From: Gulosibacter chungangensis
Lineage (GTDB): Bacteria; Actinomycetota; Actinomycetes; Actinomycetales; Microbacteriaceae
DNA: 64,000 nt
Direction: 5' to 3'
Assembly: GCF_008831155.1 (NCBI RefSeq)
Contig: NZ_WBKB01000001.1
Location: 186,001 to 250,000 of the forward strand
Shown here: positions 16,902 through 34,102 of the stretch, piece after piece
Layout: each line of letters opens with the position of its first letter
How positions within the stretch are numbered: position 1 is the stretch's first letter
Made by a program: the position numbers and the translations under genes
Notes under the pieces: generated by a model
The model's database searches: none
What the model saw: the letters and a program-made list of their open reading frames with translations, nothing else
What the model was told of the DNA's origin: nothing

Positions 16902-17288
16902 CTACTTGAGGGTAACGGTTGCGCCAGCAGCCTCGAGAGCTGCCTTTGCCTTCTCAGCGTCTTCCTTGTTTGCGCCCTCGAGCACAGCCTTGGGAGCGCC
17001 GTCAACGAGAGCCTTTGCCTCGCCGAGACCGAGCGAAGTGAGGCCACGGACCTCCTTGATGACCTGGATCTTCTTGTCACCAGCCGACTCGAGGATGACG
17101 TCGAATTCCGACTTCTCTTCCTCAGCAGGTGCAGCTTCGCCACCAGCGGCGCCAGCAGCTGCAACAGCAACCGGAGCAGCAGCGGTAACCTCGAAGGTCT
17201 CCTCGAAGAGCTTGACGAAGTCGCTGAGCTCGATGAGGGTCAGTTCCTTGAAGGCCTCGATGAGCTCTTCAGCAGTAAGCTTTGCCAT
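16902..17288 (-). CDS. rplL: Large ribosomal subunit protein bL12 (L7/L12)
   Basis: 128 residues. N-terminal dimerisation helix ([24 protein letters not shown]), Ala/Gly-rich hinge (about residues 38-52) and C-terminal factor-binding domain ending with [17 protein letters not shown]. Forms the ribosomal stalk with L10 and recruits translation GTPases. AAGGAG ribosome binding site nine bases before ATG 17288. 51 bp downstream of rplJ. Confidence 0.98.
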
Positions 17289-17339
17289 TTGTTTTCTCCT
17301 TGTAATGAATTTTGCCGCAGTACTACAGTCCGGAATGGA

Positions 17340-17855
17340 CTAGTTCGCGGACTCCTGCTTTTCGCGCAGTGCGTCGACGGTACGAACCGCCTTCGACGCG
17401 GGCGCGGTGAACATGTATGCGGCTCCGAACAGCGAGGCCTTGAAAGCGCCGGCAAGCTTGCCAAGCAGCGTTTCGCGGTTCTCGAGGTTCGCCAGCTTCT
17501 GGACCTCTTCCGCGGTAATCGGGTTGCCATCGAAGTGGCCGCCCTTGATCACCAGGAGGGGGTTATCCTTGGCAAAGTCACGCAGTGCCTTGGCAGCGTC
17601 AACAACCTCACCCTTTACGAACGCAATTGCGGTCGGTCCGGTGAAGTACTCGTCGAGGCCTTCGATTCCAGCGTTCTTGGCTGCAATCTTGGCAAGGGTG
17701 TTCTTCGCCACGGCGTAGTTTGCAGACTCACCGAGCGAACGACGCAGCTCCTTGAGCTGCGTCACGGTGAGACCGCGGTACTCAGTCAGCACGATGGCCG
17801 AAGAGCTCTCGAATTCCTTCGCGAGCTCTGCGACTGTAGCTTCCTTCGTCGCCAT
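17340..17855 (-). CDS. rplJ: Large ribosomal subunit protein uL10
   Basis: 171 residues. Base of the ribosomal stalk, binding 23S rRNA and the L12 dimers, and usually the autoregulator of its own operon. The N-terminus [19 protein letters not shown] is typical. The frame runs to 18077, but ATG 17855 has GAGAGGAG just upstream and fits the family length. Preceded by a structured leader. Confidence 0.97.
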
Positions 17856-24864: not shown

Positions 24865-25032
24865 CAGTTCCCCTTGTCTCGAGTGAGGCACAGCGTACGA
24901 GTGTGGCTCAGCGTAATTGAGCCGGCCGAATAGAGTCTGTAGACAGGGGCGATTCTGTGCCCGGTCATCCTCAAGTTGCGCGCGATCATTCTTGAGCCTG
25001 ACGGTGCCTTGAAAAGTGCGAGACTGGTTCTC

Positions 25033-25737
25033 ATGCGTAATGGTTACTCCGCCGCCCAGATTCGCGAGGCCGAAGCCCCCTTCCTCGAGCGGGGTGTACC
25101 GCTGATGATTCGCGCGGCGCAGTCCCTTGCCGAGCACGTCACGAGTATCCTGCCTGCTCCTTCCGAGTCGCGTGTGCTGGTGCTCGCAGGCCCCGGTGAC
25201 AACGGCGGCGACGCCGCCTATGCGGCGTCATTCATCGCGAATGCTGGCGTGAAGGTACAGGTCGTTGCGGTTTCGGGTCGCCTGCACGAGGCAGCCGAGG
25301 CGGCAGCACGCGATGAGGGCGCGGAGATCCTGTTGGATGCACCCCCAGAGTCAGCCGCGGCATTAGTTGCGGGTGCGGACGTGGTGTTGGATGGCGTGCT
25401 CGGGATCGGTAACGGTGGCGCGGCGGCAGGCGGTACGCCCGCACTTCGCGACCCGGCCCGCGCGTTCGTCGTCGCGGTCAAGGAAGCCATCGCATCCGCC
25501 CCTGACCCCGCGCCAATCGTTATCGCGGTCGATATGCCCTCGGGAATCGACCCCGACGATGGTTCGGTACCCGACCCGGATGCGGTGATCAAGGCCCAGC
25601 TCACCGTCACCTTCATCGGGGTGAAGGCCGGGTTGCTGCTTGAGCCTGCAGCTTCCCTGTCCGGCAAGGTTTGGCTTGAGCCGCTCGGCGCCTCGCAGGG
25701 GCTGCTGCGGGTGCGGCCGGAAGTGTCGCTGCCCTAG
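25033..25737 (+). CDS. nnrE: NAD(P)H-hydrate epimerase
   Basis: 234 residues. Epimerises the R form of hydrated NAD(P)H so that the dehydratase can repair it. YjeF_N fold: N-terminus YSAAQIREAEAPFLERG, the nucleotide loop VLAGPGDNGGDAAYAA (about residues 50-65), VLDGVLGIG and AVDMPSGIDPDDG. Only the epimerase half is present; no fused carbohydrate-kinase half follows. The ribosome binding site at ATG 25033 is weak. Followed by a terminator. Confidence 0.9.
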   Translation: MRNGYSAAQIREAEAPFLERGVPLMIRAAQSLAEHVTSILPAPSESRVLVLAGPGDNGGDAAYAASFIANAGVKVQVVAVSGRLHEAAEAAARDEGAEILLDAPPESAAALVAGADVVLDGVLGIGNGGAAAGGTPALRDPARAFVVAVKEAIASAPDPAPIVIAVDMPSGIDPDDGSVPDPDAVIKAQLTVTFIGVKAGLLLEPAASLSGKVWLEPLGASQGLLRVRPEVSLP

Positions 25738-25776: not shown

Positions 25777-25847
25777 AAGTGAAGAAAGCGCCATCTAGCT
25801 GCCGCTAGATTTTTTGCAGGTTGTGCAGTTTTCGCTTCTTTCCACTT
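25777..25847 (+). terminator. Intrinsic terminator nested inside a longer inverted repeat
   Basis: ATCTAGC (25793-25799), loop TGCC, GCTAGAT (25804-25810) and five T (25811-25815) form a terminator 55 bp after nnrE. Outside it, AAGTGAAGAAAGCG (25777-25790) is nearly complementary to CGCTTCTTTCCACTT (25833-25847), so a 71-base compound stem can form just before the promoter of the next gene. Confidence 0.75.
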
Positions 25848-25863: not shown

Positions 25864-25876
25864 TAGTATTCACACA
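25864..25876 (+). promoter_or_regulatory. Probable leaderless promoter of the helicase-sigma gene
   Basis: TAGTAT (25864-25869) is a reasonable -10 hexamer. The expected transcription start, seven bases on, is at or next to the A of ATG 25876, and no Shine-Dalgarno sequence precedes the ATG. Both facts suggest a leaderless mRNA, common in actinobacteria. No convincing -35 box is visible. Confidence 0.45.
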
Positions 25877-28800
25877 TGACTGAAACTCTCTCAGCCGACG
25901 ATGTAGAACCGGATATTACGTCGTCTAGTAGGCACGACATGTCGGCTCTGCAAAGTAACCTCAGCCCTGAAATTATTGCGGCGCAAACCGTCGGCCTCTC
26001 TTCTTTAGAGATTGCGGAGCTCATTCAAGCCTTGCAACAGCAACAGATTCGCGCTGTAGCAGCAGAGAGAGCTACGAGTGCTGTAGCTGCAATGCCGCTT
26101 GATCTTGGATTGTTCGACTGGCAGCGTGAAGCCTTAGACAAGTGGAAGTCAGCTGGAAAAATTGGAGTCGTTGAGGCGGTAACGGGGACCGGCAAGACAC
26201 GTGTCGGCCTCGCCGCCATCCAAGAGGCAAGGGCTCACGGATTCCGAGCCGTTGTCTATGTCCCGTCTTTGGCGCTACAGCGTCAGTGGATAGAACAGAT
26301 TGAATCGCTTCTCCCCGACCTCCGAGTTATCGGTCAAGCCGATCCACGCACTGAATCGGATTGGGATGTCACAGTCATCACTATCCAGACAGCGATTCGA
26401 CGAAAGATTCTTCCCGCAAATGAACAAGCGCTCCTCGTTGCTGATGAGTGTCACCGATATGGGGCACCCCAGTTTCAAAAAGGTCTCCGCTTGGATTCCT
26501 TCCCGATTCGTCTTGGGCTTAGCGCAACTCGAACACGGGGTGACTCCGGCGATGCTGCCATTGAAGAATTCTTTGAGCAAACCTGTTTCAACCTTGACTA
26601 TGAGCGCGCGGTCAAAGACGAGCTAATTGCGCCCTTCAAGGTCGCGTTTGTGCGGGTACCCTTCACGCCCAGGGAACGAGAGGCGTATGAGCTATTCAGC
26701 AACGAAATGCGTGATGTTCGAAGCAAGCTCCTCGACACAGTGCCAGCCGAGCCTTTGGGTGAATTCATGTCAGCTGTACAGCGACTTGCCAATGATCGTG
26801 CACATCGCAAGAGCGGTTTGGCACGTTGGTACCTCAAGCGATTCAGCGACCGCCGAAACCTCTTGGCTTCAAGCGAACAAAAGCAACATGCTTTACGTGC
26901 GCTAACACCAGTAGTTGCTGCTTCCAATGGAACGCTCGTCTTCACCCAGACAAAATCGTCAGCCGAGTCCGCTGCACAGATATTGAGCGAAGAGGGCGTC
27001 TCGAGTGCAGCTGTCGACTCCGGCGTGGAATCTGACGACCGAGTGGAAGTCATTCGCTTGCTGGGGGCGGGGCAGATGAAAGCGCTCGCAGCACCGACGC
27101 TTCTCGACGAAGGCATTGACTTGCCCAACGTCGATCTGGGAATCGTAGTTTCCGCTACGCATCAGCGTCGACAAATGATTCAACGGTTTGGGCGCGTCCT
27201 CAGGAAAAAATCGGACGGCTCGACTGCAAAATTTGTGATTTTTGTACTGGCCGGTTCATCGGAAGACCCAAGCTCGATAACTCACGAGCCCACATTGGCC
27301 GACGAACTTCGATCACTCGCAGAAGCAGCGGAGAACTTCGACCTCAGTATCGAAAATGAGCTCGGACGTCTCGTATCGTTCCTTGAGCCGGGAATCGACC
27401 CACAATCAATCACCAGCTTCGACGAAATAGCCACGAATAATTCAGATGAACCTGAAGCAGAGGACGATGCCCCAGACGCCGATGATGGCTCCATTTTCGT
27501 TCCTAACAATGTTCCCCAGATTGACGACGAATCGATTGAGTCGCCGGGTTCCACAGCTGGTCCGATCGACTCATCGACAGGGCCGTTCTACGAACGTGTT
27601 GTCATACGACGTGTCAGCGGCACCGCAGAAGATCCTTCACGGTTCCCGGAAATCGCCGGCCCAGGCGACGACGGCGACAAGTACTACCAAAATGACATCC
27701 GCAAAAATGCAGTGCTCTCCAGGGAAGAAGAGCGGACCCTTATGGAACGTATCCGCGCAGGGGAGGCCGCTGGCGTACGTATCAAGAATAACGAGGCGAA
27801 AACCCGCGCTGAACGCAAGGCGTGGGAAAAGCTCGTGCGTGTGGGGGATGAAGCCCGCACATATTTTATCGTATCAAATCTCAGATTAGTTAAGTCGATT
27901 GCGCTATCAAAGTACCCACAGGCCAAACGTCTTGAATTGATGGATCTGATTCAAGAGGGAAACATCGGACTTCTACGGGCAATTGAGAAATTTGACCACA
28001 CTCGCGGTACGAAATTTTCTACTTATGCAACTTACTGGATCCGACAGTCCATAGACCGAGGTGTCGATAATACTGACCGGCTAATTCGTCTGCCCGTCCA
28101 CGTCGTAGGCGCTGTCCGGAAGATTGAGCAAGCCAAGAAAAATCTCCGACGCGAGCATGGCCGGGAAGCATCCATAGCTGAGCTCGCAGAAACGACTGAA
28201 CTCTCCCAAGAGAAGGTCCTTCAATCGCTCAAAGCTGAGTGGCGAATCGATCCCCTCGATTCGATACCGTCAAATCTGGTAGATGACGAACAGAGCATGT
28301 TCGAGGAGGCCATCGAATCTCGCGATATTGATGCACGATTCAGAGCAGCGATGGACTGGCTCCTCGACAAACGCGAAATAAAGATCCTGAAGATGCGATA
28401 CGGAATCGATACCGTAGACGGTAAAGGCCGAACCCTTGACCAAATCGGTGTGGAGTTTGGAGTTACTCGGGAACGAATCCGGCAAATTGAACGAGACTCG
28501 ATGACGAAGCTCCGAGACGCTCTTCCGGATTTCCTTGCAAATGGAGGGGGTCGTGACTTGAGCGAACCTCAACTGCACGATGCTGTCCTGAGACCGGGAA
28601 AAAGGCATTCCGGTATGAGTCCACGACCGCTGGACGCTCGGCCATCACTTGAAAAAAGTCACGCTGCTGGTAAGCCGATCACGGGTTTCGGCGATCCTGT
28701 CTTGCCTTCAGCGACCCTTCCTGCACCCCAACCAGAATCAGAACTCTCTGCAAACGAGATCAGAGACGTCATTGAACTATTAGAACTGGTAAGAGAAGGC

Positions 28801-29127
28801 GACTCCGCGGCAAAGAGCTTGAACGAGCGCGATTCGTGGACACCTACTGAGCACAAGAATCTCACCGACTTGGACCGTAGTGGTAAGTATGCTCGTGCCG
28901 AACTGGTGTCCAGGGGCCTTATCCAGGAAAGCTCATCACCCGGCGACCTCAATGAAATACTCACCATGGTGAAGGAGAGCGGTGACCAAAGCTACACTCG
29001 CCCGGCTCGCGACCAATCTGTAACCTCCAACCACCTGGAATCCAAGAGTGGCAAGAAGAGGAAAAGGACGTCACTGCAAATCAACCTGAGTGCCGCCATT
29101 ACGAAGAACTGGCCTCAACGAGACTAA
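25876..29127 (+). CDS. SF2 (XPB/SSL2-like) helicase fused to a sigma-70 family sigma factor
   Basis: 1083 residues. N-terminal helicase (about 75-460): FDWQREALDKW, Walker A AVTGTGKT (101-108), motif II VADECH (188-193), motif III LSATRTR (215-221), motif IV TLVFTQTKSSAES, motif V LLDEGIDLPNVD (409-420), motif VI QRFGRVLR (436-443). An acidic linker (about 517-600) follows. Then a sigma factor: region 1.2 (about 613-635), region 2 (664-745, with LMDLIQEGNIGLLRAIEKFD and KFSTYATYWIRQSI), region 3 (746-810) and region 4 (820-886, recognition helix TRERIRQIE at 864-872). There is no region 1.1. A ~195-residue unassigned tail ends in a basic patch (KSGKKRKR). Codon use is visibly more AT-rich than its neighbours, which suggests transfer. 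The frame is intact and continuous through both parts. Role inferred: RNA polymerase recruitment coupled to DNA unwinding or remodelling. Confidence 0.93.
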   Translation: MTETLSADDVEPDITSSSRHDMSALQSNLSPEIIAAQTVGLSSLEIAELIQALQQQQIRAVAAERATSAVAAMPLDLGLFDWQREALDKWKSAGKIGVVEAVTGTGKTRVGLAAIQEARAHGFRAVVYVPSLALQRQWIEQIESLLPDLRVIGQADPRTESDWDVTVITIQTAIRRKILPANEQALLVADECHRYGAPQFQKGLRLDSFPIRLGLSATRTRGDSGDAAIEEFFEQTCFNLDYERAVKDELIAPFKVAFVRVPFTPREREAYELFSNEMRDVRSKLLDTVPAEPLGEFMSAVQRLANDRAHRKSGLARWYLKRFSDRRNLLASSEQKQHALRALTPVVAASNGTLVFTQTKSSAESAAQILSEEGVSSAAVDSGVESDDRVEVIRLLGAGQMKALAAPTLLDEGIDLPNVDLGIVVSATHQRRQMIQRFGRVLRKKSDGSTAKFVIFVLAGSSEDPSSITHEPTLADELRSLAEAAENFDLSIENELGRLVSFLEPGIDPQSITSFDEIATNNSDEPEAEDDAPDADDGSIFVPNNVPQIDDESIESPGSTAGPIDSSTGPFYERVVIRRVSGTAEDPSRFPEIAGPGDDGDKYYQNDIRKNAVLSREEERTLMERIRAGEAAGVRIKNNEAKTRAERKAWEKLVRVGDEARTYFIVSNLRLVKSIALSKYPQAKRLELMDLIQEGNIGLLRAIEKFDHTRGTKFSTYATYWIRQSIDRGVDNTDRLIRLPVHVVGAVRKIEQAKKNLRREHGREASIAELAETTELSQEKVLQSLKAEWRIDPLDSIPSNLVDDEQSMFEEAIESRDIDARFRAAMDWLLDKREIKILKMRYGIDTVDGKGRTLDQIGVEFGVTRERIRQIERDSMTKLRDALPDFLANGGGRDLSEPQLHDAVLRPGKRHSGMSPRPLDARPSLEKSHAAGKPITGFGDPVLPSATLPAPQPESELSANEIRDVIELLELVREGDSAAKSLNERDSWTPTEHKNLTDLDRSGKYARAELVSRGLIQESSSPGDLNEILTMVKESGDQSYTRPARDQSVTSNHLESKSGKKRKRTSLQINLSAAITKNWPQRD

Positions 29128-29223: not shown

Positions 29224-30036
29224 CTAAGCCCCATGGTGCACGCGCGCGAGGACCTCATCGGCGAGCTTCACGAGCTTTTCGATCTCGGCGTCATCGCGGT
29301 CAATCCAGACAAACTTCGGTTCGGGATCCTGCACGACAAAGTTCTCGTGGCGCTCCCACACGAACAGGGTGCGCTGCGCGCCCAGCACATACTGCTGCCA
29401 CCAGACCTGTCGCAGGTAGTTCCGCGGGATGCGTTTCCAGGTCTTATTGACCGTCTTAATCTCGGCGAGCACCACTTCCTCGCCCCATTCGGCGAGACCA
29501 TCCGGAGTGGCAAGGTGACGAGGGTTACCTTCCGAACGGAATAGCAGCCCGCAGCTTGCGATGCCGTGTTCCCGGTGCATCCAGTCGGCGATCACTGGCT
29601 CCCGCTGCCGACCGAAGTCGGTGAAGGCATTGCCGCTGAAGGAGCTGCCGTAAATCTTGTCGGCGGCCACCGCCTTGACTGAGGTCGGCGTCGCCAACCG
29701 CGCGGCGTCAGTCGCGGTGATACCCCGCCGGCGCTCCGCGAGCCAATTATCTCGGTCTTCTGAGGAACAGACGATGCGGGATGCCACCGGGCCCTTGGGG
29801 CGCGAGTTCCGCAGTTCTTCCAGGATGCCGGACTTCCACACTGTTCCTTCGACCGGCAGGCTCGGGGCCATTGCTGGCCGCGTTTGCCGTACGACATAGG
29901 TTTCGAAGGACTCGGTGCGTCGCTTCATTTCCTCCGGCTCAGCCGCCTTGAGTTCAGCGAGCGCGAGGGGCCCAAAATCCTCCGCAGATACTCGAGAGTC
30001 AGGCTGCTGCGCAGTCGTCGGACGGAAATACACCAT
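29224..30036 (-). CDS. YqaJ-family viral recombinase / exonuclease
   Basis: About 270 residues. A PD-(D/E)xK nuclease of the lambda-exonuclease type: WLAERRRGITATDAARL, the Glu in DFGRQREPVIADWM, and the catalytic pair ATPDGLAEW (Asp) and VLAEIKTV (Glu-x-Lys). The N-terminal 100 residues are not conserved in phage YqaJ and look like an added region. No RecT/Bet annealing partner is adjacent. ATG 30036 is chosen; a TTG at 30081, seven bases after the stop of the upstream kinase, is an alternative. Confidence 0.82.
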   Translation of the reverse strand: MVYFRPTTAQQPDSRVSAEDFGPLALAELKAAEPEEMKRRTESFETYVVRQTRPAMAPSLPVEGTVWKSGILEELRNSRPKGPVASRIVCSSEDRDNWLAERRRGITATDAARLATPTSVKAVAADKIYGSSFSGNAFTDFGRQREPVIADWMHREHGIASCGLLFRSEGNPRHLATPDGLAEWGEEVVLAEIKTVNKTWKRIPRNYLRQVWWQQYVLGAQRTLFVWERHENFVVQDPEPKFVWIDRDDAEIEKLVKLADEVLARVHHGA

Positions 30037-32858: not shown

Positions 32859-33548
32859 TTAGAGCGCCGAAACGTCGAGCGGGATCGACGGACCGAAGGT
32901 GGTCGAAACAGCAGCCTTCTGCACGTAGCGACCCTTGGCCGACGACGGGCGGAGGCGGATGACCTCTTCGATGGCAGCTTCGAGGTTCTGCACGAGCTGT
33001 TCAGCCGAGAACGATGCCTTACCAGCGATGAAGTGCAGGTTGGCGTGCTTGTCCACGCGGAACTCGATCTTACCGCCCTTAATGTCGGTAACAGCCTTGG
33101 CTGCGTCCGGGGTAACGGTACCGGTCTTCGGGTTCGGCATCAGGCCGCGGGGACCGAGGACCTTACCGAGACGACCGACCTTACCCATCATGTCGGGGGT
33201 AGCAACGGCCGAGTCGAAGTCGGTCCAACCGTCGGCAACCTTCGCGATGAGTTCGTCCGAACCGACCTCGTCTGCGCCAGCTTCGAGAGCTGCCTCTGCC
33301 GCGGGGCCCTGTGCGAACACGATAACGCGAGCGGTCTTACCGGTGCCATTGGGGAGGCTCACGGTACCGCGAACCATCTGGTCTGCCTTGCGGGGGTCAA
33401 CAGCGAGGCGCATTGCGACCTCAACGGTGCTGTCGAACTTCTGCGAAGCGGTCTCCTTCGCGAGGGCTGCTGCCTCGGCGACGGTGTAGACCTTGCCCGC
33501 CTCAATCTTCTCTGCCGCGGCGCGGTACGCCTTGGACTTCTGTGCCAT
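32859..33548 (-). CDS. rplA: Large ribosomal subunit protein uL1
   Basis: 229 residues, standard L1 length. Contains the signature region [21 protein letters not shown]. Part of the L1 stalk and usually a translational repressor of the L11-L1 operon. ATG 33548 has AAGGAGCA upstream. Downstream of rplK. Confidence 0.98.
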
Positions 33549-33621
33549 GTTGTGCTCCTTACGAGAGTGTGCGGTTGACGAGCTTGGCCAGCTCTCCCGC
33601 GGAATAATTCATGCGTCGCTC

Positions 33622-33640
33622 CCGAAGCCGCATGCTTCGG
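33622..33640 (-). promoter_or_regulatory. Hairpin between rplK and rplA
   Basis: CCGAAGC (33622-33628) and GCTTCGG (33634-33640) form a perfect 7-bp stem with a five-base loop in the mRNA between rplK and rplA. This is a possible L1 binding or processing site; position is the only support for function. Confidence 0.4.
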
Positions 33641-33667
33641 AATGAGTCGACGAAGTGGCCCGGGTGC

Positions 33668-34102
33668 TTAGGCGCCCGTAACCTCGATGCCCATCGAACG
33701 AGCGGTACCGGCGATGATCTTCGCGCCAGCCTCGATGTCGTTCGCGTTGAGGTCAGCCTTCTTCGTCTCAGCGATCTCGCGGCACTGGTCGAGCGTCATC
33801 TTGCCGACCTTGTTGGTGTGGGGCACACCGGAGCCCTTCTTGACGCCAGCAGCCTTCTTGATGAGTTCTGCGGCGGGAGGGGTCTTGAGTACGAACGTGA
33901 ACGAGCGGTCCTCGTACACGGTGATCTCGACCGGAACCACGTTGCCACGCTGCGACTCGGTAGCCGCGTTGTAGGCCTTGCAGAACTCCATGATGTTCAC
34001 GCCGTGCTGACCCAGCGCCGGACCAACCGGGGGTGCGGGGTTCGCGGCGCCAGCCTGGATCTGCAGCTTGATCAGACCCGTGACCTTCTTCTTCGGTGCC
34101 AT
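33668..34102 (-). CDS. rplK: Large ribosomal subunit protein uL11
   Basis: 144 residues. N-terminus [20 protein letters not shown], with the [17 protein letters not shown] motif of L11. Binds the 23S rRNA GTPase centre. ATG 34102 has GAAGGAAAA upstream. Between nusG and rplA in the conserved secE-nusG-rplK-rplA order. Confidence 0.98.

Follow-up and report, generated by a model that had tools for sequence, protein, structure and literature searches.

The locus examined here raises the question of whether a DNA helicase and a complete sigma-70 factor can form a single bacterial protein and, if so, what such a protein would do. The gene lies in a window of 64,000 nucleotides from Gulosibacter chungangensis (contig NZ_WBKB01000001.1, positions 186,001 to 250,000; coordinates below are those of the window), where it occupies positions 25876-29127 of the forward strand as a single stop-free frame of 1083 amino acids with an ATG start, the stop being included in the span. 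Our analysis shows that helicase and sigma-70 factor are fused in this one protein. The initial annotation, made from the DNA letters, had claimed a superfamily 2 (SF2) helicase and sigma regions 1.2 to 4 in one unbroken frame, and both the 1083-codon open reading frame and its Pfam domains bear this out, the residue borders given at the time (75-460 and 613-886) being correct to within ~10 residues. We propose, with a probability of roughly 40%, that the protein acts directly against invaders, as a DNA translocase linked to defence that uses its sigma half to engage the RNA polymerase of the host at promoters of the housekeeping type.

All features of the protein are on the forward strand. 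Pfam gathering scores are exceeded by ResIII (residues 78-219), Helicase_C (343-444), and sigma-70 regions 2 (Sigma70_r2, 665-726; 27868-28053), which binds core polymerase and recognizes the -10 element, 3 (r3, 747-787; 28114-28236), and 4 (r4, 830-880; 28363-28515), which recognizes the -35 element. The helicase core, XPB/PbeA-like according to Pfam, PADLOC (PbeA) and Foldseek (XPB), spans residues ~78-470 (26107-27285), with the Walker A, DExH, SAT/TAT and motif VI elements of SF2 spread across two RecA-like domains. These elements are conserved among the 33 aligned family members introduced below: T103, G104, G106, K107 and T108 are invariant in and next to motif I (Walker A, GTGKT, residues 104-108; 26185-26199), D190, E191 and H193 in motif II (DECH, 190-193; 26443-26454), and Q436, R437, G439, R440 and R443 in motif VI (QRxGRxxR, 436-443; 27181-27204). 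The sigma part as a whole comprises regions 1.2-4 (residues ~600-888). Region 1.2 (603-631; 27682-27768) is weak in the window protein, scoring 17.4 bits, below the Pfam cut-off of 22, and is detected at E<=0.001 in 31 of the 33 members. The helicase and sigma halves are separated by a linker (507-597; 27394-27666), and a C-terminal tail (889-1083; 28540-29124) follows the sigma half.

Regions 2 and 4, with their core-binding and promoter-reading residues, are present in all 33 members. F714, S715, T716, Y717, A718, W721 and Q724 of region 2 are invariant, as are R865, E866, R867, R869 and Q870 of the RERxRQ motif (865-870) in region 4. Position W720, which we assume to have a role in promoter melting, is W in 30 of 33 members, Y in the window protein, H in Gulosibacter sediminis and N in locus L068. 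We take W720/W721, Q724 and RERxRQ 865-870 to correspond to W433/W434, Q437 and R584-Q589 of Escherichia coli. In nearly all members, the promoter-reading residues are of the housekeeping sigma type.

An AlphaFold2 model of the window protein, built on an alignment of 31 window and locus sequences, has a mean predicted local distance difference test score (pLDDT) of 71.9 and a predicted template modelling score of 0.51. Most of the helicase and sigma regions is modelled with confidence; pLDDT falls below 50 in the linker, which is predicted to be disordered, and in the tail, most of which is of low confidence, and the short segment ahead of the helicase core (residues 1-75) is partly so. The model gives no prediction for the placement of the helicase half relative to the sigma half. 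When the model was searched against the PDB with Foldseek, XPB structures ranked first to third, and mycobacterial SigA in initiation complexes ranked fourth and sixth to ninth; chains of yeast TFIIH (Ssl2, pre-initiation complex) were among the first 50 matches.

The same architecture was sought in other genomes, as had been suggested for this protein. Scanning genome contigs with eight fusion helicase domains as the query reported 238 relatives, of which 80 loci were kept and tested with a profile built from 21 Microbacteriaceae SigA proteins. Helicase and sigma domains share a stop-free frame in 31 of these 80 loci and in two plasmid records, so that the family numbers 34 with the window gene, one member (L054) being cut short in its sigma half. 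The 31 loci come from Arthrobacter/Pseudarthrobacter (11), Brevibacterium (7), Pseudoclavibacter (4), metagenome-assembled genomes labelled Propionibacterium (2), and one each from Enteractinococcus, Nocardioides, Granulicoccus, Aestuariimicrobium, Tessaracoccus, Gulosibacter and a member of the Geodermatophilaceae. The relative from G. sediminis, 48% identical to the window protein, runs uninterrupted for 1052 codons, so the possibility that relatives are always divided between residues 500 and 610 does not hold. A sigma factor frame separate from the helicase was encountered in only two of the examined loci, both lacking the fusion. Distribution is patchy: in a scan of 398 genomes of the family, the fusion was established in at least five (G000, G377, G133, G233 and G070). 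The two plasmids, pYJN5-1 and pACHL01, bear fusions under the database label 'sigma-70 family RNA polymerase sigma factor'. L037 and L038 are Micrococcaceae megaplasmids of 440 and 427 kb, in which the fusion lies near the plasmid's own dnaE and ssb; in L037, nrdIEF is close by as well. Pfam's HA (helicase-associated) domain occurs in 3 of the 33 members, by sequence the plasmid group. Origin as a phage or virus gene was considered and rejected: a scan of viral contigs with the helicase alignment yielded one weak relative without a sigma part (L128), and tblastn in phages returned matches to one half or the other and no record covering 80% of the query.

In the open-licence literature searched, phrase search included, we found no description of a fusion between a helicase and a complete sigma factor. 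Its novelty as a described arrangement, put forward in the initial annotation, thus stands within this literature, though databases contain such proteins as sigma factors. Sigma-70 factors are not known to use ATP; sigma-54 requires a separate ATPase, and eukaryotes employ XPB within TFIIH.

A tree of 87 helicase domains, built by a quick method and rooted at the midpoint, places the 34 fusions and four non-fusions on one side of a branch with a Shimodaira-Hasegawa-like approximate likelihood ratio of 98, and the fusion label requires 3 changes versus 27 in shuffles; the fusion family is probably of single origin. The four non-fusions are L070, a helicase alone, and three Geodermatophilaceae proteins of ~1300-1350 amino acids. 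L058, the one of these three that was scanned, ends in mREase_IV (6.9e-211). At L058:8239-16230, the helicase-type IV restriction enzyme, an HNH protein and a helicase-sigma fusion stand in tandem, so that one helicase type has two partners. Given that members of the same helicase clade have a type IV restriction enzyme as C-terminal partner, in one case next to a fusion, the C-terminal slot appears to accept an effector or targeting module. The sigma tree is poorly resolved, with long branches. In the fusions of L056 and L058, a helicase half from inside the fusion clade is combined with a sigma half that groups with SigA (99), a pattern suggesting that the sigma half may sometimes have been renewed. 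Purifying selection acts on both halves in the pairs computed, 11 related pairs that share branches and do not include the window's own pair: omega is 0.03-0.09 for the helicase (11 pairs), 0.05-0.16 for sigma (10 pairs, one saturated) and 0.14-0.53 for the linker (9 pairs).

Defence genes are frequent directly beside the fusions. Genes at the loci were called with our own script, whose output was compared visually with the annotation of plasmid L037, and the neighbour set was unselected, consisting of the first gene on either side at 32 loci (63 genes; the window and L085, where the fusion was not called, were excluded). With PADLOC at E<=1e-15, at least 17 of the 63 immediate neighbours matched, versus at most 5 of 60 control genes. 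The 17 comprise NERD-type genes (7), PDC-S37 (3), HEC-05 (2), DrmD (2), HNH (1, in L058) and two genes of L073, some having been assigned to their loci by gene clustering. The figure of 17 combines the scan of this set with a scan of 28 genes that had been selected for their resemblance to defence genes. The recurrent order in the Arthrobacter group is a NERD-UvrD gene, the fusion, an AddB-like nuclease and an AddA-like helicase-nuclease, and in L049, L052 and L055 the fusion overlaps the AddB-like PD-(D/E)XK gene by 4 bp. The Brevibacterium AddA/AddB-like pair is divergent from the fusion (L063); in L060 and L064, at least one gene intervenes. The fusion precedes DrmD-like and type IIG genes in L072 and L111, and in L111 it overlaps the DrmD-like helicase gene by 4 bp. 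In L073, the fusion begins 68 bp after a HerA/DndH-like gene, and a mad7-like gene is also present. Other neighbours are PDC-S37 (L056, L061), BrxHI, a type IV enzyme and HNH (L058), ZacC (L066), and Druantia DruE with HEC-05 (L094). A phage-response or mobile-element programme was one of three mechanisms offered at the outset, and it is the one for which these neighbours and the patchy distribution provide positive evidence.

The copy in the window sits between an NnrE-like gene, as we name it (24976-25737, forward strand, start as listed), and a YqaJ-domain gene (29224-30036, reverse strand), which form the left and right boundaries of the insertion. In eight of nine other Gulosibacter genomes, these two genes are 24-212 bp apart, and in the ninth another gene lies between them; among 11 Gulosibacter genomes, only those of the window and G. 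sediminis have the fusion there. The YqaJ gene was considered as a partner and rejected, being present in all 11 genomes searched, with or without the fusion. The window fusion gene has a guanine-plus-cytosine (GC) content of 0.532 versus 0.619 for the window, and a third-position GC of 0.53 versus 0.73-0.75 in the neighbouring genes. The helicase halves of the two Gulosibacter fusions are 58% identical and sisters in the tree; their flanking genes are 56-69% identical. The two copies may be old and lost elsewhere, or may have been gained twice at one site. On a wider scale, the window genes at 16905-17855 and 32862-34102, presumably rplJ/rplL and rplA/rplK, are separated by ~15 kb that include the nnrE-yqaJ region, and G. 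sediminis has the same arrangement. The window fusion stands alone, and neither it nor the G. sediminis copy has a linked operon. A simple promoter scan returned a single promoter-like site, inside the fusion gene, with no excess over shuffles. A terminator-like hairpin with a T run lies just 5′ of the fusion gene (25793-25810), such sites being no more frequent than in shuffles (5 versus 4.4 +- 2.0).

From this combination, we infer activity in both halves, a defensive role, and the following order of events. A flexible linker would tether an XPB-like translocase of the defence-system type to a functional sigma-70 factor. The sigma half would bind core RNA polymerase and housekeeping-type promoters, such as those of plasmids and phages, and ATP spent by the helicase half would drive movement along that same DNA or its opening. 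Transcription there would be blocked or cleared, or the DNA would be passed to nucleases, often encoded next door. We prefer such direct action on transcribed foreign DNA because the promoter residues are of the housekeeping type, the window copy has no operon, and a restriction enzyme can take the place of sigma. The fusion might, more tentatively, represent a previously unreported class of bacterial initiation factor, a sigma factor with its own motor, coupling ATP-driven translocation to promoter engagement in an immune device that recognizes invading DNA by its housekeeping-type promoters and the polymerase bound there.

Several observations weigh against this proposal. Beside the window fusion, no defence gene was recognized in a reading of the called genes, the window genes not having been scanned against PADLOC, and none was recognized directly beside the fusion in G. 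sediminis, L062, L068, L069, L085 or L098. Seven of the 17 defence neighbours derive from one Arthrobacter clade and hence are not independent, and the variation of neighbours by lineage would also fit mere residence in defence islands. The first control, which took 51 genes from four randomly chosen stretches of 17 kb, gave many PADLOC matches (61 families), and one of its stretches was ~16.5 kb from a fusion gene. This stretch is L152 (G133:C1:332303-349302), from the Pseudoclavibacter genome of L062, and contains Hma and methylase genes. In the final control, random stretches from two fusion-free Gulosibacter genomes took the place of those from G133 and G233 and the other two were kept, upon which the HmaB, HmaC and type II methylase matches vanished. 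Finally, evolution is faster in the sigma half than in the helicase half. The difference is striking, several-fold, in Gulosibacter, where the end branches measure 1.4 and 1.85 changes per column for sigma versus 0.32 and 0.46 for the helicase.

The main rival, which we consider rather unlikely, is an infection-responsive switch, in which the helicase, on sensing foreign or damaged DNA, would release the sigma half or bring it into position to transcribe a linked defence operon. The operonic members fit it well, the fusion lying within defence operons of different kinds (L111 and L072; L049, L052 and L055; L073), and MzaA, a separate sigma factor, is part of the MZA defence system (PMC9523054). 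However, the two Gulosibacter copies have no operon to switch, and the housekeeping promoter-reading residues of nearly all members indicate no obvious private regulon, which is further disfavoured by the unchanged RERxRQ of region 4.2.

A clearly more doubtful explanation is promoter opening driven by ATP in the manner of TFIIH, the fusion serving as a general or stress initiation factor whose helicase melts the promoters to which the attached sigma half is bound. The structural matches, which include yeast Ssl2 of TFIIH in the pre-initiation complex and SigA in RNA polymerase open complexes, would suit such a role, and the Y or H at position 720 in the two Gulosibacter copies means that melting there may be weaker. 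Yet melting residues of the housekeeping type are kept nearly throughout, so that a motor should be needless, and a presence in at least five of 398 family genomes ill suits a general factor. Harder still to credit is a housekeeping role between transcription and replication or repair, in which a sigma-tethered translocase clears stalled polymerase, for which Mfd, RapA and HelD are the comparison cases, or channels DNA to AddAB-like repair nucleases. AddA-like and AddB-like genes do lie directly downstream in Arthrobacter and beside the fusion in Brevibacterium, but the fusion is not a core gene, and the neighbours in other lineages are defence rather than repair genes. An assembly join or read-through of two neighbouring genes can be dismissed for practical purposes, given 34 one-frame loci from many independent assemblies, complete plasmids included, and a third-position GC that is the same in both halves of the window gene (0.524 versus 0.525), in keeping with a single gene.

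The covalent union of a sigma-70 factor with an XPB-like motor would allow motor-driven promoter action in bacteria to be tested with one protein and, should our proposal be true, would tie the initiation of transcription to defence against foreign DNA. Being large enough and present in cultured actinobacteria, the family is directly testable.

The initial annotation assigned the helicase to the XPB/SSL2 branch; this is right by fold, whereas by sequence profile the closest relative is PbeA of defence systems. Resemblance to XPB/RAD25/Ssl2 extends to the fold (best PDB entries 6p4w, 5tnu and 6p4f), the SF2 motifs, an XPBII match of 1.4e-51 in an hmmsearch with the helicase alignment, and an R-x-D at the position of the RED motif, present as RED in 6p66_A. 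By contrast, the middle residue of this motif is variable (G in the window protein; R221 and D223 are invariant in the 33 members), ERCC3_RAD25_C (384-465) reaches 25.2 bits, under its gathering score of 27, and a sigma factor is attached. The role of bacterial XPB itself is described as not known in PMC3353954. PbeA, of the DNA-phosphorothioate-linked PbeABCD/CxC-ATPase defence, is the best PADLOC match of the window protein (residues 45-487, 2.2e-62), and the best NCBIfam helicase match, TIGR04095 dnd_restrict_1 (1.2e-38), is well below the family cut-off. Only positions 219-664 of the 672 in the PbeA profile are matched, 1-218 being unmatched. PMC10853773 presents PbeA as an HKD nuclease with an SF2 domain and reports a sigma-related helix-turn-helix in some DndH proteins; on this description, the HKD nuclease has no counterpart in the fusion, which instead has a sigma factor after the helicase.

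The sigma half resembles the actinobacterial group 1-2 factors SigB/SigA in having regions 1.2-4, its best solved relative being Mycobacterium tuberculosis SigB (7pp4), and differs in its long, diverged branches in the sigma tree, its junction to a motor, and a score below the SigB cut-off (best NCBIfam match PRK07921 SigB, 4.1e-69; 233.1 bits versus 464). A sigma-helix-turn-helix-like domain is described in BrxL (PMC12839542), and sigma factors are described in jumbo phages (PMC7824862). MzaA, the second PADLOC match (sigma part, 5.3e-41), is, like the fusion, a long defence-linked protein with a C-terminal sigma-70 module (NCBIfam, 2.1e-65). Compared by profile only, the fusion scores 221.9 bits versus a cut-off of 800 and leaves the first 453 of 726 positions unmatched; identity with MzaA was rejected on this score, and no MzaA was detected at E<=1e-120 in 41 genomes of the phylum. 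The Geodermatophilaceae proteins (L058 and, by tree, L059 and L065) belong to the same helicase clade, grouping with the L058 fusion at 100, and carry, in L058, a type IV restriction enzyme where the fusion carries its sigma factor.

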